Shown: positions 3,330 through 17,571 of the stretch, piece by piece
Layout of the letters: each line of letters begins with the position of its first letter
Numbering within the stretch: the first letter of the stretch is position 1
Source: a virus
IMG/VR virus record: IMGVR_UViG_3300023176_002924
Location: 1-23,948 of that record
Reading direction: 5' to 3' (one strand)
DNA length: 23,948 nucleotides
The notes under the pieces: generated by a model
The model's input: the letters and a program-made list of their open reading frames with translations, nothing else
The model's database searches: none
Told to the model about the DNA's origin: nothing
Made by a program: the position numbers and the translations under genes

Positions 3330-4073
3330 TTATCCTCTCATATCCATTACTGGTAATGAGTAGTTATTAATCATTTGTTCTTCTAGTTTAGTAATTTCTG
3401 CTTGAGCATCATCGTACAGTTTAGCGCCATTAAAGGTTATACCGCCAGGCAATTGCATCCCTTCAAATTTTGTTAAATTAGAACCCCATTGTCTTTTAAT
3501 TAATTGCGTAGTATAATGCTTAAGCCATCTGTCATTCCAAACATCTGTGTATGTATCTGGATCTACGATTTCGTAAGCTTCTACTAAAACATATTTGTCT
3601 AATTCTAAAGCAGCCTCGCCTTTATCAATGTGTAATATATTTCTATGTCTATTATAACGTATAGGAGTTCTACCTACTAAAATTTCTTGAACTAACGCAA
3701 GATGTTCCATTGACATGTAATAATCGATTAATCCAACATTAACTAATGTATATAAATCATTTAAAGCAATTTGATATCGTATATTAAATAAATCACCAGC
3801 ACTAGTTGCAGGATCACTCATTTCAAATATTTTTACAACTCCCATTATATTTTCCGGAAGAGTAATAGATTTATCATCAATGTTTTGCTGAGTTATTTGA
3901 TGCTTATAATAAACTTTTGATGTTCCATCGAAATGATAATCATAGTAAAATCTTAAAGCTTCATCAATTCTATCATCTACTTGATCATCATCTACATTAA
4001 TTTCTATTACTGGCTTACCTAAAGCTCTTAAGCAATATTCTTTAAATTCAGATCTTGTAGTTGGATTAGCCAT
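3330..4073 (-). CDS. 13: Neck protein gp13 (head completion)
   Basis: The 247-aa product fits T4 gp13, the head-completion/neck protein that binds the portal with gp14. Features typical of the family are the N-terminal TRSEFKEYCLRALGKPVIEINVDDDQVDDRIDEAL, the FYYDYHFDG segment, ITLPENIMGVVKIF, and the C-terminal half with DVWNDRWLKHYTTQLIKRQWGSNLTKFEGMQLPGG. The ATG at 4073 is preceded by AGAGAT at a reasonable ribosome-binding distance. It opens the 13-14-15-16-17 series, which is collinear with T4. In T4 the fibre gene 12 and wac lie upstream of gene 13, and here a fibre and accessory block also occupies that side. Confidence 0.95.
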   Translation of the reverse strand: MANPTTRSEFKEYCLRALGKPVIEINVDDDQVDDRIDEALRFYYDYHFDGTSKVYYKHQITQQNIDDKSITLPENIMGVVKIFEMSDPATSAGDLFNIRYQIALNDLYTLVNVGLIDYYMSMEHLALVQEILVGRTPIRYNRHRNILHIDKGEAALELDKYVLVEAYEIVDPDTYTDVWNDRWLKHYTTQLIKRQWGSNLTKFEGMQLPGGITFNGAKLYDDAQAEITKLEEQMINNYSLPVMDMRG

Positions 4074-4087
4074 TATTGTATCTCTAG

Positions 4088-4900
4088 TTAAAGTGTAATT
4101 TCATCCATGTTAACACTGCCATGTAAAGCTATAAATGCTAAAATTGTATCGTCACTTGTTGCAATAATTTCTTGTGAATTTGTTGGATCATAATCAACGT
4201 ATTGATTTATTGATACGTTTTCAGAATTTATAGTAAAAGAACCATTTAAACATACAATTCTACCACCAATTGCACCTGGAAATACTTTTGTGTTCATTGT
4301 TTCTGAAGAAGAAAGTTGCGCGCAATCCCACAGTTGAGTTGGAGTATCTAATGTCTGTAAGCTTGGAGGTACACCTATTTGCCAACACTCCCAGCCGCCT
4401 ACTCCGGCTACTAGTTTACTTCCAGTATTTCGAAAATAAGATTCTGGATTTAAATTTAATCCATTTTCACACACTGTAGATTCAATTTGATTTCCAGTAT
4501 CATATTGAATGATAATATCTTCTTGTGAATTTAATTTTAAAGTGTGCGTTCCATTTCCCCTAATAATCCCTATATGATAACATGGGCACAAGATTTCAGG
4601 ATTATACGAAGAATGATTTGTATATACGTCATCTATATTTAACTTCAATATAGGCGTTTTTCTAATCATATTTACGTCACTTATAGTGCTAGATAAGTGC
4701 ATATTTTCTCTTAAATCAATCTCGGGATCATCTCCTGCACATAATATATAATGATTTTCACTTAAAACAGATTTTAATACTACTAAATTCCTCCAATATA
4801 TCTGATGATCATCAACATCAAACATACCTTTTGTAACCGTTACACCCGGACCAAAAGCAATATTAGTGTGTGAATCGTAATTTATATTTCTAACTGTCAT
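4088..4900 (-). CDS. Unrecognised 270-aa protein, cupin-like C-terminal region
   Basis: I do not recognise this protein with certainty. It has no signal peptide or membrane segment. The last 60 residues, GGRIVCLNGSFTINS...NQYVDYDP...IIATSDDTILAFIAL, have the alternating short beta strands, the Gly turn and the late acidic pair of a cupin barrel half, but no complete metal-binding His set is visible there. The N-terminal half contains several Cys and His residues (for example CPCYHIG), which is unusual for a phage structural protein. It lies 2 nt after the preceding gene and 14 nt before gene 13, so it is part of the same transcription unit. A sugar-modifying or virion-decorating role would fit its two glycosyltransferase-like neighbours, but that is inference. 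Confidence 0.8.
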   Translation of the reverse strand: MTVRNINYDSHTNIAFGPGVTVTKGMFDVDDHQIYWRNLVVLKSVLSENHYILCAGDDPEIDLRENMHLSSTISDVNMIRKTPILKLNIDDVYTNHSSYNPEILCPCYHIGIIRGNGTHTLKLNSQEDIIIQYDTGNQIESTVCENGLNLNPESYFRNTGSKLVAGVGGWECWQIGVPPSLQTLDTPTQLWDCAQLSSSETMNTKVFPGAIGGRIVCLNGSFTINSENVSINQYVDYDPTNSQEIIATSDDTILAFIALHGSVNMDEITL

Positions 4901-4902
4901 TT

Positions 4903-5676
4903 TTAACCTGCGCTATTTCTAGATTTTAAACATCTACCATTGTTAATTGGTAAATATTTTTCATTTATATCCATTTTTAATTTTAGAATCATATCTGATT
5001 CTTTTTTTGCAATTTGTTCAATGTTTCTAATATATTTATAATTCAAATGATCTGTGTACTCTAATAAACGATTAAAATTATATGTCCATGCTTCTGCAAC
5101 AGTACATCTTCCAGTTTTTACAAATTTTCTATAATCATGACATACAGCACTTAATCCCTTTACGCCATAATTTAAACAGTTCTTAGCATCAAACGCATGA
5201 TCTATTAAAGGATCTTCTTTATGTAAATAGTTTATTGGCATATCTGTTACTGCCACTTTACTTAAAAATCCGGAATCTTGTTCAGGAATATAATTAAATA
5301 AGAATGGATTTAATATAAAAAATGATAAATCTGCTATTCCAGGATTTGCTTTTATTCTTAAATTATTATAATAACTTGCAAGATTTGAATCTTTTGAAAA
5401 AGTATATCTTTTATTTTTATAAAACGCAAAATTCGAATTGCAAATAGAATTATATTGTAAATTAATTAAATTTAGATCGCATATAATTCCACTGGCCAAG
5501 GCAATAGTTGGTCTTGTACAATTTTTTAATACAGTATTAACTTTTTTATTATTTTCACATTGAATAATTGACCATTTCCAATCTGGAGTATTTTTTTTCA
5601 AAGAATTAATAGTTAAAGGTAAAAGATCATTATCATTATTTAATATGATAACATCAAATTTTTGAATGTTGCTCAT
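4903..5676 (-). CDS. Possible GT-A-like glycosyltransferase-related protein
   Basis: I place the start at the ATG at 5676 (257 aa), which gives MSNIQKFDVIILNNDN. An upstream in-frame ATG at 5742 would add 22 Lys/Ile-rich residues and push the overlap with the preceding gene to 89 nt. The chosen start has GAGG upstream and a 23-nt overlap. The opening DVIILNNDNDLLPLTINSLKKNTPDWKWSII resembles the first beta-alpha-beta of family 2 type glycosyltransferases (vsvIilN...Sl). No clear DxD motif is seen, although TDMPINYLHKEDP in the middle might hold acidic ligands. The C-terminal third is helical and charged. Function is therefore tentative, but coding is supported by tight packing in the operon and the adjacent glycosyltransferase-like gene. 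Confidence 0.75.
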   Translation of the reverse strand: MSNIQKFDVIILNNDNDLLPLTINSLKKNTPDWKWSIIQCENNKKVNTVLKNCTRPTIALASGIICDLNLINLQYNSICNSNFAFYKNKRYTFSKDSNLASYYNNLRIKANPGIADLSFFILNPFLFNYIPEQDSGFLSKVAVTDMPINYLHKEDPLIDHAFDAKNCLNYGVKGLSAVCHDYRKFVKTGRCTVAEAWTYNFNRLLEYTDHLNYKYIRNIEQIAKKESDMILKLKMDINEKYLPINNGRCLKSRNSAG

Positions 5677-6565
5677 GTTCAAATTTATCCTCAAAATATT
5701 TAAAATAATTATAAATTCTTTCTTCTTGATTTTTACTATCAACTGAAATCAATCCGTTAAAATTACAAGAAAATATTGATTTCAAATCTTGTTGTATTTC
5801 TTTTTTCATTTCGTTTGGATTTTTTTTATCAAAATATATATGCTTATAAAAATTGGAATAAGTATATGATCCACGTTCTTTTCCAACGTATGCTGTATCT
5901 AACCCTTTAATAAAGGCGATAAGGCCCATTTCAGTATTTTCACAAAATCCAACTTTATTACAATTAGCAAGAATTTCATGTCCGGACAATTCTTTATTGA
6001 TAATGTTATTTTTTCCAAATTTATACTGTAGATGAGATAACATAGATTCAGGTGTTATAGGATGACACTTTATTTTAGCATTTTCACTTTTTATTAATTG
6101 CGTTATTTTATCTTCATCTACAATTTTATTGTAAATATTGTTGCCGGGTAAAAATATAACAAAATCGTTATAATCTTTATTTCGCGTAGGTCTCAATGAA
6201 TATTTGTCGACATGTTTCTCATATAAAATGTTGAAAATATTTTCACCATCTTCATTAATTTTTGTCTTTTTACTTTCTTTAATTATTTCAGAATTTCTTA
6301 ATCTAGATGAACATCTAATATATACAAATTTACCTAAACAATCTGTATAAAAATATCCAGAAATTTTATTATCATTTCGAGAGGAATAAGAAACATCATA
6401 TTCTAATTTCGTTTTTCTTTCTTCAATTTCTTTAAATGGTAATTTTTCTCGTAATTTTGTTAATTCAACGTCATTACTAACAGATCTTAACGCGGTACCA
6501 GATTTAAAAAAATGTGCAGATATATTTCCTAAATTGTCATCACTCGCTAGAAATTTTAGTGGCAT
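5654..6565 (-). CDS. Possible GT-B / capsule-synthesis-like protein
   Basis: This 303-aa protein has no confident family. The region 134-230 resembles the C-terminal half of GT-B proteins such as polysaccharide or CDP-glycerol transferases: FVIFLPGNN, then IKCHPITPES (the 'K.HP' signature, HP at 168-169), then SGHEILANCNKVGFCENTEMGLIAFIKGLDTAYVG (residues 194-228). The last stretch matches the pattern in which a cluster of small residues and a conserved Glu precede a helix and 'GkPv'. The N-terminal 130 residues are charged and unassigned. The ATG overlaps the preceding 56-aa ORF by 26 nt and has GAGG about 9 nt upstream. Together with the next gene it may glycosylate a virion or host surface component, which is inference from motif shape and position only. 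Confidence 0.72.
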   Translation of the reverse strand: MPLKFLASDDNLGNISAHFFKSGTALRSVSNDVELTKLREKLPFKEIEERKTKLEYDVSYSSRNDNKISGYFYTDCLGKFVYIRCSSRLRNSEIIKESKKTKINEDGENIFNILYEKHVDKYSLRPTRNKDYNDFVIFLPGNNIYNKIVDEDKITQLIKSENAKIKCHPITPESMLSHLQYKFGKNNIINKELSGHEILANCNKVGFCENTEMGLIAFIKGLDTAYVGKERGSYTYSNFYKHIYFDKKNPNEMKKEIQQDLKSIFSCNFNGLISVDSKNQEERIYNYFKYFEDKFEHEQHSKI

Positions 6566-6710
6566 TTTTTAATTCCTCAATATTTTTTTCTAATGCTATA
6601 ATATCTTTTTCAAATTCATTTAATCTATCATCAACTTTTCTAAAATGTTCCATAATGATTGTAATCATAACTTCAAATTTATTATCTAATGTTTCAAAAC
6701 TTTTTTCCAT
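6540..6710 (-). CDS. Small 56-aa coiled-coil protein
   Basis: A short ORF fills the space between the 933-aa rod and the glycosyltransferase-like gene. It reads MEKSFETLDNKFEVMITI and continues with a regular heptad-like alternation of hydrophobic and charged residues (FRKVDDRLNEFEKDIIALEKNIEELK), which predicts one long helix or coiled coil. A good ribosome binding site, AAGGTG, lies about 7 nt before the ATG. It starts 11 nt after the rod gene and overlaps the following gene by 26 nt, the dense packing seen for real genes here. I do not recognise a family. A fibre-assembly helper or an oligomeric accessory is possible. Confidence 0.7.
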   Translation of the reverse strand: MEKSFETLDNKFEVMITIIMEHFRKVDDRLNEFEKDIIALEKNIEELKNATKISSE

Positions 6711-6721
6711 AATAATTCACC

Positions 6722-9523
6722 TTATAGTGTCCAAGTATTACCATCCCAAGTCTGAGGAATTAATGTATCTAACGTTGTATCGTATACTGTTAACGTAGTT
6801 CTATTAGTATCTATATCAGTATTATAACCAGTATCAAATACCGTTAACGTAGCTCTAGTAGTAATTCTGTCTGTATCATATCCAGTATCAAACGCTGTTA
6901 ACGTAGTTCTAGTAGTATCTATATCAGTATTATAACCAGTATCAAATGCGGTCAGCGTAGTTCTAGTAGTATCTATATCAGTATTATAACCAGTATCAAA
7001 CGCTGTTAATGTAACTCTATCAGTGTCTCTATCAGTTGATACTGCGGTATTGAATGCCGATTCATACGCTGTTACAGTAGTTCTATCCGTATTTTTGCCA
7101 GTATCAAATGCAGTTAACGTAGTTCTAGTAGTATCAATTGTCGTATTTTGACCAGTATCAAATGCCGTTAACGTAGTTCTATCCGTATTTTTGCCAGTAT
7201 CAAATACCGTTAACGTAGTTCTAGTAGTAGCAATATTAGTACCAAATACTGAATCATACGCTGTTACAGTAGTTCTATTGGTTGCTATTGCAGTATTAAA
7301 TGCTGATTCATACGCTGTTACAGTTTGTCTATCAGTATTATAACCAGTATCAAATACCGTTAACGTAGTTCTACTAGTTCCTATTGCCGTATTGAATCCT
7401 GATTCATACGCTGTTACAGTAGTTCTATCCGTATTTTGTCCAGTCTCAAACACTGTTAATGTTTCTATGTTTGTTTCTACTGCAGTATTAAACGCTGATT
7501 CATACGCTGTTACAGTAGTTCTATCCGTATTTTTTCCAGTCTCAAACACTGTTAATGTAATTACATTGGTTTCTACTGCGGTATTAAACGCTGAATCGTA
7601 TGCTGTAATCGTATCTCTATTCGTATTTCTTAGAGTCTCAAATGCAGTTAACGTAGTTCTAGTAGTATCTTTGGTCGTATTGGCGCCAGTATCAAATACC
7701 GTTAGTGTAGTTTTAGTAGTACTAATATTAGTACCAAATCCTGATTCATATGCTGTAACTGTATTTCTATTAGTTCCTACTGCGGTATTAAATGATGATT
7801 CATATGCTGTAACTGTATTTCTATTAGTTGATACTGCGGTATTAAATGCTGATTCATACGCGGTAACTGTAGCTTTATTAGTTTCTACTGCGGTATTGAA
7901 TGACGAATCATACGCCGTAACAGTTGATCTATTAGTTGAGACAGAGGATGTGGCCCTATTGATCTGAAATGACCCGCCACCAAATTTATCAGATTGAATT
8001 AACGGTCCTTTGTAATAAGTAAATCCATCAGGATGCGCATAGCCGCTCAGGATCAGTGGGCCACTGTATTTTTGTACCGATGCCCAGATAACAGAGGTGG
8101 TCGCAGTACCTGATTGGGCCCAAACATACGAGCCGGCGACTATCGTATTTGGTCCTTGCGCGCCTGTAGTATTAAATACCGTCAATGTAGCTCTAGTAGT
8201 AGCAATATTAGTATTTTGTCCAGTCTCAAACACTGTTAATGTAGATCTAGTAGTACTAATATTAGTATTCAAACCCGTCTCAAACGCTGTAAGTGTAGTT
8301 TTAGTAGTATCTTTGGTCGTATTGGCGCCAGTATCAAATACCGTTAGTGTAGTTCTAGTAGTATTGATATTAGTATTAAACGCTGATTCATACGCGGTAA
8401 CTGTAGCTCTATTAGTTCCTACTGCGGTATTAAATGCCGATTCATATGCTGTAATCGTATCTTTATTCGTATCTCTTAGAGTCTCAAACGCTGTAAGTGT
8501 AGTTCTAGTAGTAGCAATATTAGTATCTTGACCAGTCTCAAACACCGTTAATGTTTCTATGTTTGTTTCTACTGCAGTATTAAACGCTGTAATAGTATTT
8601 TTAGTAGTATCTTTGGTCGTATTTTGTCCAGTCTCAAACACTGTTAATGTAATTATATTGGTTTCTACTGCGGTATTGAATGCTGTAATAGTATTTTTAG
8701 TAGTATCAATATTAGTATCTTTACCAGTATCAAATGCTGTAATCGTATCTTTATTGGTTGCTACTGCAGTGTTGAATGCTGTAATAGTAGATTTAGTAGT
8801 ATCAATTGTCGTATCTTGACCAGTATTAAACACCGTTAGTGTAGTTTTAGTAGTAGCAATATTAGTATTAAACGCTGAATCGTATGCTGTAATCGTATTT
8901 TTGTTGGTTTCTACTGCAGTGTTGAATGCTGTAATCGTATTTCTGTTGGTTTCTATTGCAGTATTGAATGCCGATTCATATGCTGTAATCGTATCACGAT
9001 TAGTTTCTACTGCAGTATTAAACGCTGTAACCGTATCTCTAGTAGTATCAATTGTCGTATCTTGACCAGTATCAAACACCGTATTAAAAGCAGTAATCGT
9101 ATCACGATTAGTTTCTACTGCAGTATTGAATGCTGAAACAAAAGCAGTAACCGTATTACGATTAGTTTCTACTGCAGTATTGAATGCTGAAACAAAAGCA
9201 GTAACCGTATTACGATTAGTTTCTACTGCAGTATCAAACGCGGTAATAAATGCAGTTACTGTAGCTTTATTGGTTGCTACTGCGGTATTAAATGCTGATA
9301 CGAAAGCAGTAAGAGTAGTACGATTCGTATTGAATGTAGTAAGGAATAATGTATCAATTGTAGCATTATAAAAATCACCTAAAGAAATAGCGCCAGTAGG
9401 TTTAGCTGGATCTGGAAATTGTCGTACATAATTAATGTTTAGACTGATACTACTATTGCTAGTATTACCCATCTCGACATTAATGTCAGACATTGATATT
9501 GGGCCTGAACCTTGTAGCGCCAT
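6722..9523 (-). CDS. 933-aa Thr-rich repetitive tail-fibre rod
   Basis: Residues 1-57 (MALQGSGPISMSDINVEMGN...GAISLGDFYNA) form the short N-terminal virion-attachment module seen in many marine phage structural proteins. From residue 67 to 920 the protein is almost entirely repeats of the form N/T-R/K-x-T-[VIL]-T-A-[FY]...T. I parsed 45 complete units: 30 of 18, 13 of 14 and 2 of 22 residues, plus one partial unit. Residues 453-530 are a non-repetitive insert (WAQSG, GYAHPDGF, KFGGGSF). The end is LIPQTWDGNTWTL with no chaperone domain. Hydrophobic spacings 3-4-7, 3-4-4-7 and 3-4-4-4-7 fit heptads mixed with hendecads or pentadecads, hence a trimeric rod. A late promoter and AAGAG ribosome binding site precede the ATG. 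The preceding gene encodes an S74 chaperone. Confidence 0.9.
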   Translation of the reverse strand: MALQGSGPISMSDINVEMGNTSNSSISLNINYVRQFPDPAKPTGAISLGDFYNATIDTLFLTTFNTNRTTLTAFVSAFNTAVATNKATVTAFITAFDTAVETNRNTVTAFVSAFNTAVETNRNTVTAFVSAFNTAVETNRDTITAFNTVFDTGQDTTIDTTRDTVTAFNTAVETNRDTITAYESAFNTAIETNRNTITAFNTAVETNKNTITAYDSAFNTNIATTKTTLTVFNTGQDTTIDTTKSTITAFNTAVATNKDTITAFDTGKDTNIDTTKNTITAFNTAVETNIITLTVFETGQNTTKDTTKNTITAFNTAVETNIETLTVFETGQDTNIATTRTTLTAFETLRDTNKDTITAYESAFNTAVGTNRATVTAYESAFNTNINTTRTTLTVFDTGANTTKDTTKTTLTAFETGLNTNISTTRSTLTVFETGQNTNIATTRATLTVFNTTGAQGPNTIVAGSYVWAQSGTATTSVIWASVQKYSGPLILSGYAHPDGFTYYKGPLIQSDKFGGGSFQINRATSSVSTNRSTVTAYDSSFNTAVETNKATVTAYESAFNTAVSTNRNTVTAYESSFNTAVGTNRNTVTAYESGFGTNISTTKTTLTVFDTGANTTKDTTRTTLTAFETLRNTNRDTITAYDSAFNTAVETNVITLTVFETGKNTDRTTVTAYESAFNTAVETNIETLTVFETGQNTDRTTVTAYESGFNTAIGTSRTTLTVFDTGYNTDRQTVTAYESAFNTAIATNRTTVTAYDSVFGTNIATTRTTLTVFDTGKNTDRTTLTAFDTGQNTTIDTTRTTLTAFDTGKNTDRTTVTAYESAFNTAVSTDRDTDRVTLTAFDTGYNTDIDTTRTTLTAFDTGYNTDIDTTRTTLTAFDTGYDTDRITTRATLTVFDTGYNTDIDTNRTTLTVYDTTLDTLIPQTWDGNTWTL
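6764..7933 (-). repeat. Second in-frame repeat array of the rod
   Basis: This region codes for residues 531-920: 23 units (15 of 18, 7 of 14, 1 of 22 residues), nearly the same make-up as the first array. Near the 3' end successive units are close to identical at the DNA level (for example around 6890-7000), pointing to recent duplication or homogenisation. The 22-residue unit here carries its extra tetrad (DRDT) at the front, unlike the one in the first array. Confidence 0.9.
7934..8167 (-). other. Non-repetitive, G+C-rich domain inserted in the rod
   Basis: This stretch codes for residues 453-530 between the two repeat arrays. It is Gly/Tyr/Trp-rich and has no Thr repeat. By hand count, 8041-8160 is about 54% G+C, against about one third in 8221-8280. 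The difference suggests a separately acquired domain, perhaps a receptor-binding or kink element in the rod. I recognise no family. Confidence 0.75.
8168..9325 (-). repeat. First in-frame repeat array of the rod (42/54/66-nt units)
   Basis: This region codes for residues 67-452 of the 933-aa protein: 22 complete units (15 of 18, 6 of 14, 1 of 22 residues) and a 10-residue partial unit. All unit lengths differ by multiples of four residues (12 nt). DNA similarity between units is high in places, so slippage and unequal recombination are likely. The reading frame is kept throughout, which marks it as a coding repeat and not a CRISPR or iteron array. Confidence 0.9.
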
Positions 9524-9542: not shown

Positions 9543-10082
9543 TTAACTATTTATAGTTTTAAGTTCATCTATTTGTTTTTGTTGTTCTTTGACAACTTCA
9601 ATGAGCAAAGCTACTATTCTGTCATATTTTACGGCTAATAATCCATTTTCTCTTTCTGCTACAAGTTCAGGTAAAACATTTTGTAATTCTTGTGCAATAA
9701 CTCCTACATCTGCTTTTCTAATATTATAATCATCAACTCCGCCTACACTTTCTAAATGGGCATCAGTCCAATCAAAGTTATATCCATTTAAAGCTTTTAC
9801 TTTTTCAATAGGATTTTCAATATTTCTTACATTTTCTTTTAACCTAGAATCAGATGAATAAAACGCAGTTATATCGCCTGTTGCAGTAATATTGCCAGTA
9901 ACTGAAATTCCTGCAGAAAAAGTCATCGCACCTGCGGCGGTATCTGCAACATCACTTCTCAAAAAGTTTGCGCCTTCAATTCCATCCACCGTATCTGCAT
10001 TTAATCCAGACCCAGGCCCATCATTACCGGCGTGCCAAACAAGTGAACCACCTATAGTTGTTCCTGTTCTAAGTTTCGACAT
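9543..10082 (-). CDS. 179-aa near-minimal S74 intramolecular-chaperone fibre protein
   Basis: Residues 16-43 (WHAGNDGPGSGLNADTVDGIEGANFLRSD) are a tail-fibre repeat module, and 44-73 is a short beta-rich linker (GISVTGNITATGD). From about 76 the protein is a Peptidase_S74 chaperone. SSDSRLKEN at 76-84 holds the conserved Ser for self-cleavage. GYNFDW, VGVIAQELQNVLPELV and VKYDRIVALLIEVVKEQQKQIDELK (final trimeric coiled coil) are all family signatures. In S74 proteins such as endosialidase the domain trimerises and folds a beta-helical fibre, then cuts itself off. Here almost nothing remains to be folded in cis, so it may be a very short fibre or act on a neighbouring fibre. AGAG precedes the ATG, which overlaps the 54-aa ORF by 14 nt. 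Confidence 0.93.
   Translation of the reverse strand: MSKLRTGTTIGGSLVWHAGNDGPGSGLNADTVDGIEGANFLRSDVADTAAGAMTFSAGISVTGNITATGDITAFYSSDSRLKENVRNIENPIEKVKALNGYNFDWTDAHLESVGGVDDYNIRKADVGVIAQELQNVLPELVAERENGLLAVKYDRIVALLIEVVKEQQKQIDELKTINS
9548..9555 (-). promoter_or_regulatory. T4-type late promoter before the 933-aa rod
   Basis: The minus strand reads TATAAATA, the exact T4 late (gp55-dependent) -10 box. It lies inside the last codons of the preceding S74 gene, 24 nt before the rod ATG. Confidence 0.7.
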
Positions 10083-10233
10083 TATTATTCTCTATTAAAT
10101 TAAGTAATTCTTGCATTCTTTCAATATATTGATTTTCAATAGATCGTCTTTCTTCTTCAGTATTTCCTAGATCTATTTGAGTATTTATAAAACCAATTTC
10201 GTTTAATGCTGCATCGATTTCTTCTTGTGTCAT
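10069..10233 (-). CDS. Small 54-aa helical protein
   Basis: The ORF starts at an ATG that overlaps the TGA stop of the 502-aa gene by three bases (ATGA arrangement) and ends 14 nt inside the S74 gene. The sequence MTQEEIDAALNEIGFINTQI followed by a Glu/Arg/Gln-rich helix (TEEERRSIENQYIERMQELLNLIEN) predicts a short acidic helical hairpin or coiled coil. AGGG-type purines directly upstream could serve as a ribosome binding site. Coupled translation with both neighbours supports a real gene. I recognise no family. An assembly helper for the adjoining fibre proteins is a reasonable guess. Confidence 0.72.
   Translation of the reverse strand: MTQEEIDAALNEIGFINTQIDLGNTEEERRSIENQYIERMQELLNLIENNNVET
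10182..10189 (-). promoter_or_regulatory. Possible late promoter box inside the 54-aa ORF
   Basis: The minus strand reads TATAAATA about 100 nt before the S74 gene start. It is an exact late box, but it is inside a coding region (codons for FINT), so it could be chance. Confidence 0.35.
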
Positions 10234-15968: not shown

Positions 15969-15976
15969 TATTTATA
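15969..15976 (-). promoter_or_regulatory. T4-type late promoter before the 1392-aa fibre
   Basis: The minus strand reads TATAAATA. It overlaps the TAA stop of the 2OG oxygenase gene and leaves a leader of about 50 nt before the fibre ATG at 15918. Confidence 0.7.
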
Positions 15977-16598
15977 CAAACTTTGGCCCGTAAACCCACC
16001 AAACAATTGACTTTCTTAGTCCAGTTTTTACTCTACCAACTCGATGTAAAGTCCAGGAAGGAAATGCAATTAAAGTATTTCTTTTTTGTTCTAACGTAGT
16101 TAGTACACCAGAATCCATTATTTGGAATTTTCCACCTTTATATTCTTCTGGATCTGATAGAATTAAACTAAAACTTAATTTTCTATGCATTGCAGAATTC
16201 ATTTCTAAATTTGTATTTAAATCTGAAAATTTATCACAATGTAAAGAATAGTGTTGACCTTTATAATACGATGTCAATTGTATAAAATTAAAACCAGTTA
16301 GATTAAATCCAAAATAAGCATCATTGATACTTTCTGTTAATGTATAGAGAGAATGGAACGCAGCAATAGATAATTCATTTGTATCATCGTAGTTATAAAA
16401 ACTTAAATTAGAAGATCTAATTTTTGAGTCTTTTATTCCATCACTACTGTCGATACCATCTTTTCTTATTGCTTGAGGATCTGTTGAATTAAAATATTCT
16501 TCTAAAATATTTAATTCGTCTTCTGGCATAGCATTTTCAAAAATTAAATAATCTTCTTGACATAATAATTTTTTTTCTGGATAGGGCGTTAATGGCAT
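15972..16598 (-). CDS. 2OG-Fe(II) oxygenase
   Basis: The 208-aa protein belongs to the 2-oxoglutarate/Fe(II) dioxygenases, which hydroxylate proteins, nucleic acids or small molecules using O2 and 2-oxoglutarate. The facial triad is visible as H120-x-D122 (GQHYSLHCDKF) and H185 (FPSWTLHRVGRV), and R195 (TGLRKSIVWW) fits the 2-oxoglutarate-binding Arg. The core strands RKLSFSLILSDPEEYKGGKFQI are typical of the P4H/PiuC-like branch. The length is normal for a phage single-domain enzyme. Such genes are frequent in marine T4-like phages. Here it sits alone inside the fibre module, behind a late-promoter-like box, so it is likely made with virion proteins. Its substrate cannot be read from the sequence. 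Confidence 0.92.
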   Translation of the reverse strand: MPLTPYPEKKLLCQEDYLIFENAMPEDELNILEEYFNSTDPQAIRKDGIDSSDGIKDSKIRSSNLSFYNYDDTNELSIAAFHSLYTLTESINDAYFGFNLTGFNFIQLTSYYKGQHYSLHCDKFSDLNTNLEMNSAMHRKLSFSLILSDPEEYKGGKFQIMDSGVLTTLEQKRNTLIAFPSWTLHRVGRVKTGLRKSIVWWVYGPKFV

Positions 16599-16623: not shown

Positions 16624-16631
16624 TATTTATG
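16624..16631 (-). promoter_or_regulatory. Variant late promoter before the oxygenase gene
   Basis: The minus strand reads CATAAATA, one base from the T4 late box. It overlaps the stop codon of the 314-aa S74 gene and lies 25 nt before the oxygenase ATG, the same geometry as the exact boxes. Confidence 0.5.
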
Positions 16632-17571
16632 TATTTTTTAAAGCATCTATTTCGGCTTTGAGTGCTTTGCACACTGATATTAAAAACGCAGATAGTTTTT
16701 GATAATCTACAGCTTTAAATCCATTTTCACGAGTTTCAACTAATGTAGGTTGTATTTCTTCAATTTCTTGTGCAATTACACCAATAGCGTGACCGGTTTG
16801 TTGATGAATATCTGGAAAAGGAATCCAATCATATTCATATCCATTTATTTGATCTAACTTAGATAAAGCATCAGTGATAGGAGTAATATTTTCTTTTAAT
16901 CTTTGATCCGAAGAAGCAAACGCTGTAACATCACCGGTACAAGAAAGTGCACCTACGATTCTACTATTTCCATTAACATGTAAAGCATATGCGCCGGGAG
17001 CAGTATTAACGCCTACTCTAGTTGCAGTTGTATCAACGTGTAAAATTGGAGTTGCAACAGCACCAAATACTGTATTTCCACCAGTAACATTAAGTACTTC
17101 ATCTGCAGAAAGATATTTAAAAACTACGTCTGAACCAGTTCCAAAGTTGATAGCTTGATCGTCAACTAAAGTAACACTACCTTTTCTCATACGAACATTT
17201 GCAGCTATATGATTTTCAGGATCAGGATCAGAAACATCACCAAAACTCAATGTTTTTTCTGCGGTACCAAAATATTCATCATCTTCATCTGAGCGTAAAA
17301 ACTGGCTTGAAGATAAACCTCCGACTGCAGATCCATTTACATTAGTTAATTGAGAACCATTTCCAAAGAAATACGGCGCTACAACATTTGCAGCAGCTTC
17401 AATAGCATTTTGTGTATTTCCACTGTGTGATTGCCCAATCGACATTACGCCATTAGTACCATCAACATAAAATTTATTAGTGTTTACTGTAATATTAGCA
17501 TCACCTATAACGACGTCGCCGTCTGTAGTTAAGCCTTCTAATACTTCAAATTTTATTGCTTGATTTGCCAT
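16627..17571 (-). CDS. 314-aa tail-fibre protein with C-terminal S74 chaperone
   Basis: Residues 1-215 are beta-rich fibre sequence (VVIGDANITVNTNKFYVDG, PYFFGNGSQLTNVNGSAV, RVGVNTAPGAYALHVNG), of the type found in fibres folded by S74 domains. The chaperone begins at about 220: SSDQRLKEN (220-228) has the conserved cleavage Ser, GYEYDW follows, then GHAIGVIAQEIEEIQPTLV and a closing helix KLSAFLISVCKALKAEIDAL for trimerisation. On family knowledge, the last 95 or so residues are probably removed after folding. The gene begins 3 nt after the 137-aa gene. It is clearly related to the 179-aa S74 protein over the chaperone but has a much longer fibre part. Confidence 0.94.
   Translation of the reverse strand: MANQAIKFEVLEGLTTDGDVVIGDANITVNTNKFYVDGTNGVMSIGQSHSGNTQNAIEAAANVVAPYFFGNGSQLTNVNGSAVGGLSSSQFLRSDEDDEYFGTAEKTLSFGDVSDPDPENHIAANVRMRKGSVTLVDDQAINFGTGSDVVFKYLSADEVLNVTGGNTVFGAVATPILHVDTTATRVGVNTAPGAYALHVNGNSRIVGALSCTGDVTAFASSDQRLKENITPITDALSKLDQINGYEYDWIPFPDIHQQTGHAIGVIAQEIEEIQPTLVETRENGFKAVDYQKLSAFLISVCKALKAEIDALKNT

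Follow-up and report, generated by a model that had tools for sequence, protein, structure and literature searches.

Gene layout of the late-region block

The window, by which we mean the whole 23,948-base virus record analysed here, covers the late region of a T4-like phage, encoded on the minus strand. Along this region, terminase-like, sheath-stabiliser, gp14- and gp13-like genes are followed by a block of four genes, a 933-aa rod and then the fibre genes. The gp13 gene (3330–4073; phrog_211, E = 2.6e-44) lies directly next to the gene C end of the block. Gene C (4088–4900; 270 aa) and gene B (4903–5676; 257 aa from its ATG, the longest ORF opening with TTG at 5742) encode orphan proteins, and gene A (5654–6565; 303 aa) encodes a putative GT-B glycosyltransferase of the phrog_26179 family with likeness to KpsC and sialyltransferases. 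A coiled-coil-like ORF of 56 aa (6540–6710) separates gene A from the Thr-periodic rod (6722–9523; 28% Thr), the proposed acceptor of gene A. The 56-aa ORF overlaps the start of gene A, and the start of gene B overlaps its end; because neighbouring ends throughout the block overlap or almost touch, a single transcript of the four genes is suggested. The three consecutive genes that an earlier note had placed before gp13 are real minus-strand ORFs, but the 56-aa ORF had been missed and the block comprises four genes. These genes recur, with proteins 100% identical, on a pair of IMG/VR contigs, the size of one being 106,333 bases.

Gene A is the only one of the three larger genes in the block for which the earlier note's reading found support; its proposals of a second glycosyltransferase of GT-A type in gene B and of a cupin in gene C found none. 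Relatives of both genes were found only in copies of this virus and not in the relatives that carry gene A and a rod. Gene B gave nothing of interest in Pfam at E ≤ 10, and its single-sequence model (pLDDT 30.6) is useless for fold reading. Its comparison with the gene following gene A in other phages gave scores reached by 49/500 shuffles for DLP_6, 8/500 for KVP40 and 151/500 for D479; with the local alignments to the DLP_6 and KVP40 genes at or near shuffle level, the GT-A reading was set aside. Gene C matched nothing in Pfam or NCBIfam, and the cupin reading found no profile support; its only profile match was phrog_7415 (E = 0.054), together with a weak match (E = 0.19) to a lactococcal phage baseplate protein.

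Several other features were seen in the fibre region of the window. A 2OG-Fe(II) oxygenase (PF13640, E = 1.2e-13) lies inside the fibre cluster at 15972–16598, two separate fibre-like genes (9543–10082 and 16627–17571) carry the Peptidase_S74 intramolecular chaperone domain, and the gene at 10230–11738 matches ILEI (PF15711) at E = 3.5e-6, barely over its cut-off.

Gene A and known sugar transferases

Gene A belongs to a phage protein family without a named function. Residues 3–292 of its 303 align to positions 3–287 of the 302 in phrog_26179 (E = 1.2e-42), and a weaker match was found to phrog_30602 (E = 6.8e-11); neither family is named for a function. A tblastn search brought up relatives from 35 Vibrio, 9 Caulobacter and 1 Stenotrophomonas phage records, 45 in all. 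When bacterial genomes were scanned for the gene A family, a single locus (L123) came back, which lies on a phage-like contig inside a MAG. The GT-B-like C-terminus proposed earlier holds up in that its motifs are present, KCHP at residues 166–169 and ENTEMGLIAFIKG. The K-x-H-P motif is invariant in 21/21 relatives, and 23 columns are invariant in an 18-sequence set, including Y56, D57, D120-K121-Y122, P140, N143, K166, H168, P169, E212 and G271.

The predicted structure points in the same direction. The AlphaFold2 model built from the 18 sequences reached a pLDDT of 79.9 and a pTM of 0.81, and most of the PDB rows that Foldseek ranked highest were glycosyltransferases of GT-B type or epimerases with a GT-B fold; no row reached E ≤ 0.001, the best standing at E = 2.5e-3. 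A second structural alignment, in whose ranking the absence of a chain excludes no chain, placed E. coli KpsC (6mgc) first (Z 10.8, rmsd 4.2, 233/303 residues aligned, 10% identity), followed by more KpsC and by WbbB (Z 9.5) among other GT-B enzymes, with polysialyltransferase 5wc6 (Z 8.6, 125 aligned) and KrkA ranking lower. The gene A sequence profile also aligned collinearly but weakly, around K-x-H-P, with the two domains of a KpsC-like protein from bacteria. At the level of Pfam, the window protein matched neither Capsule_synth (PF05159) nor Glyco_transf_52 (PF07922) at E ≤ 1; two relatives scored below the curated cut-offs, Lullwater gp42 against Capsule_synth (E = 0.006, 16.5 bits, cut-off 20) and KVP40.0256 against Glyco_transf_52 (E = 5e-4, 19.8 bits, cut-off 26.1). 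Predicted fold and motif together support the reading of gene A as a GT-B glycosyltransferase.

The retaining beta-Kdo transferases KpsC, WbbB and KrkA (GT107, GT99, GT140) share with the gene A model their GT-B fold and with its sequence the (K/R)xHP CMP-binding motif, which, according to PMC12887879, is common to retaining Kdo transferases and sialyltransferases. They differ from gene A at the catalytic site. In these enzymes the nucleophilic Asp of QxxxD is described as absolutely conserved (PMC9587256 and PMC12887879). The corresponding loop, which follows strand one of the C-terminal domain, has QxxxD in none of the 21 gene A sequences and LPGxN or a near variant in its place, a correspondence based on predicted strand order and a weak alignment. 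A Q...D pair occurs elsewhere, within 50 residues before K-x-H-P, in 2/21 relatives (L016, L017). Identity to the Kdo transferases is only about 10%, and gene A adjoins a phage fibre gene and does not lie in a capsule locus. Since QxxxD is missing, we do not file gene A in GT99, GT107 or GT140; catalysis by the retaining Kdo-transferase route is unlikely for the same reason, and activity may have been lost. Judged by its sequence, gene A probably resembles a CMP-sugar transferase in its working, and an inverting route would be our guess. The HP-motif sialyltransferases (GT52, GT38) likewise share K-x-H-P with gene A, and the sub-threshold match of KVP40.0256 is to one of their families, but mainly the C-terminal half aligns.

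The missing QxxxD could also mean that gene A is a degenerate glycosyltransferase fold which acts as a folding or assembly chaperone for the repetitive fibre and is no enzyme at all. Tight linkage to the fibre gene and the small proteins often found alongside would fit such a role, but a pure scaffold would hardly need an invariant nucleotide-binding K-x-H-P, nor so many invariant columns, and we consider it unlikely. A CMP-sugar synthetase (PF02348) was found in 0/7 phage records searched, so the donor would come from the host or would be another sugar. PF00535 had no match in the one genome searched, the 106-kb copy of the window virus.

Co-occurrence of gene A with Thr-rich proteins

In every testable IMG/VR locus, gene A has a Thr-rich protein close by. 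Scanning IMG/VR under the guidance of a profile yielded 29 loci with gene A, which together with the window virus's own copy (L043) make 30, among them Lullwater and Cr30 as represented in IMG/VR (L014, L015). Three loci (L035, L037, L041) end too near gene A and were left out of the count. Each of the 27 testable loci has, no more than two genes upstream of gene A, an ORF whose Thr content is 18% or higher, and most of these proteins are Thr-periodic. Clustering at 90% identity left 18 gene A types, and each of the 16 testable ones had a Thr-rich protein upstream. The earlier note had asked whether the genes co-occur with the Thr-rich rod, and for gene A they do; it had counted occurrence in phages lacking Thr-rich fibres as evidence against its proposal, and gene A turned up in no such phage, with the possible exception of Vibrio phage D479, which has gene A and no rod within the 14 kb read. 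A full-text search of the open-licence literature returned no paper linking these genes.

Thr-rich fibres might simply be common beside late genes in aquatic phages, which would make the co-occurrence an artefact of ascertainment: every locus was found via gene A, and the Thr cut-offs (18% and 20%) were chosen after the rods had first been seen. Yet among ORFs more than three genes from gene A in the same loci, just 1/216 reaches 18% Thr. As a negative control, a gp13 search returned 80 loci, in 50 of which the upstream DNA amounts to 3 kb or more; a periodic rod of 20% Thr or higher was found in a single locus, that of the window virus, and gene A in two, both copies of the window virus. The Percyvirus comparison described below hardly depends on a cut-off either, and we regard an artefact as highly improbable. 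Lower cut-offs in the control added four loci (L062, L072, L084, L092), whose tail proteins near gp13 have another tetrad repeat, (Y/F)-(T/A/S)-G-x where read, in loci that lack gene A. Periodicity in a fibre does not by itself call for gene A.

The rods themselves are regular in their Thr spacing and variable in sequence. After a short non-repeat N-terminal region, the window rod repeats Thr (or Ser) four residues apart, some steps being of 2 residues, and the autocorrelation of Thr pairs peaks at lag 4 (z 13), lag 14 (z 14) and lag 18 (z 18), odd lags being depleted. Even Thr spacings are in excess in 10/11 rods (z 4.3–22); the exception is the 116-aa protein of Cr30, which is rich in Thr and Tyr and has no significant periodicity (z 0.2). 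The residue preceding Thr varies by rod: the window rod favours N, T or D, whereas L036, which like L040 is of a Pro-Thr type, has P in 68 cases. Homology scans starting from two rods returned only the query contigs and were uninformative, and tblastn from one rod gave the query or nothing; low complexity and fast divergence of the repeats are the probable cause. No useful match came from PDB chains when two rods were used as queries. With the Lullwater rod, tblastn found seven records, all of them Caulobacter phages that also carry gene A.

Small proteins accompany the pair in many genomes. Small ORFs precede gene A in DLP_6, KVP40 and D479 as well; the 56-aa window ORF scores as similar to those of DLP_6 and KVP40 (scores reached by 1/1000 and 0/1000 shuffles) but not to that of D479 (424/1000), coiled-coil composition inflating such scores. 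In most uncultured loci, a protein of ~160–170 aa, mostly beginning MLYA or MLYV, lies between rod and gene A, and one of ~60–70 aa with paired cysteines follows gene A (in L020, phrog_13558 and a sub-threshold DUF6171). The former is conserved at ~168 aa (L020 6825–7328, L031 3314–3823 and equivalents); its L020 copy had no Pfam or PHROG match of interest, and it is possibly a helper of fibre assembly.

The pairing recurs at varied places in the genome: before gp13 in the window and Cr30, before the tail-tube-cap and gp53 genes in L020, between fibre and holin in Lullwater (Quill is similar), and among hypothetical genes in KVP40. In KVP40 the protein two genes upstream of gene A, KVP40.0254, has 29% Thr and a lag-4 excess reached by 0/2000 shuffles, and a 72-residue coiled-coil-like ORF lies between the two. 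In DLP_6 the small ORF and gene A stand shortly before gp13, and the Thr-periodic segment (parity z 13.6) is not adjacent to gene A but forms part of AAY80_265, to which it is fused and whose annotation reads baseplate wedge subunit. A large unannotated ORF is also cut by the two ends of DLP_6's linear record (L013 7894–10488, L008 3–1655); the annotation therefore omits a structural gene that precedes gene A.

Within Percyvirus, a phage has either both rod and gene A or neither of them. Both are lacking in Percy and KSC, whose tail fibres are 1013 and 1054 aa long, whereas DCM, BL198 and ERS have a 408-aa fibre, then a 217-aa rod, then gene A. The first 290–297 residues of the short fibre match the first 322–339 of the long one at 50–59% identity. 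This is a swap of fibre-tip cassettes, a truncated fibre with rod and gene A against a long fibre. Cd1, Scott, Brevundimonas BC and Babayka have neither rod nor gene A in the stretches read. Host ranges of these phages are reported in PMC11053796; its host-range remarks do not separate the cassette groups, as ERS (with the cassette) and KSC (without it) are both narrower, and its main text does not use the term 'glycosyl'.

Many phages are known to encode glycosyltransferases whose target is LPS or DNA, and the relatives of gene A are capsule and sialic-acid enzymes. Gene A might accordingly modify some other target, such as the host surface in superinfection exclusion, another virion protein or DNA, and owe its linkage to the rod to transfer in a late-gene cassette. 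That the pairing recurs at different genome positions, and that the two genes occur or are lacking jointly within Percyvirus, makes this quite unlikely in our judgement.

A proposed sugar-coated fibre and its analogues

We consider it likely that gene A is a GT-B glycosyltransferase decorating the neighbouring Thr-periodic rod; its activity, acceptor, donor, linkage, timing and role we infer, while the genes, the motif, the predicted fold, the co-occurrence and the Percyvirus fibre-tip swap are observed. Gene A would be expressed late, along with the genes for fibre and neck, and would take a nucleotide sugar from the host, probably a CMP-sugar (CMP-Kdo or a sialic-acid-like sugar), a donor that we think probable because gene A has K-x-H-P. 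With most Thr of the rod at even spacings, the hydroxyls of an extended chain would point to the same side, and sugars would be put on these regularly spaced positions before or during virion assembly. The virion would then bear sugar in the form of a coated fibre, standing in place of the ordinary tail-fibre tip or extending it, with a putative role in adsorption or shielding.

Gene clusters of serine-rich repeat adhesins hold dedicated glycosyltransferases. A repeat adhesin co-encoded with its glycosyltransferase is the closest functional analogy to the proposed pair of rod and gene A, in that a hydroxyl-rich repeat protein is encoded together with sugar-attaching enzymes. The adhesins, O-glycosylated repeat proteins of Gram-positive bacteria (PMC6973325), are cell-surface proteins exported by accessory Sec, whereas the rod would be a virion part. 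A second analogue is CryoSeek II (PNAS 2025; cited in PMC12967142 and PMC12689565), whose title describes freshwater glycofibrils with glycans coating linear tetrapeptide repeats. To judge from that title, these are sugar-coated linear repeat proteins of the kind proposed for the rods; the window rod itself combines its lag-4 Thr peak with 2-residue steps. A link between phage rods and such glycofibrils would be attractive.

More tentatively, and with considerable doubt, a widespread mobile cassette of Thr-periodic fibre, small helper and KpsC-like glycosyltransferase may build sugar-dominated fibres that replace receptor-binding tips, phages of this kind being a source of the freshwater tetrapeptide-repeat glycofibrils. 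If true, Caulobacter podoviruses, KVP40-type vibriophages, DLP_6 and uncultured T4-like phages would carry a fibre-glycosylation cassette of their own, a repeat chain and an enzyme would be seen to take the place of fibre tips, and unannotated genes of well-known phages such as KVP40 would be explained. Lullwater or DCM on Caulobacter CB15 would provide a cultured, harmless test system, and environmental glycofibrils would gain a possible genetic origin.

Sites in the CryoSeek II glycofibrils reportedly include hydroxylated proline as well as Ser/Thr. A 2OG-Fe(II) oxygenase hydroxylating the rod before glycosylation was considered as a regular component and rejected, PF13640 being present in just 2/16 module contigs and absent from Lullwater and Cr30. 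L031, like the window, carries one, and for the Pro-rich rods the oxygenase is a lead. The long ORF after gene A in L123 resembles a 2OG-Fe(II) oxygenase by eye.
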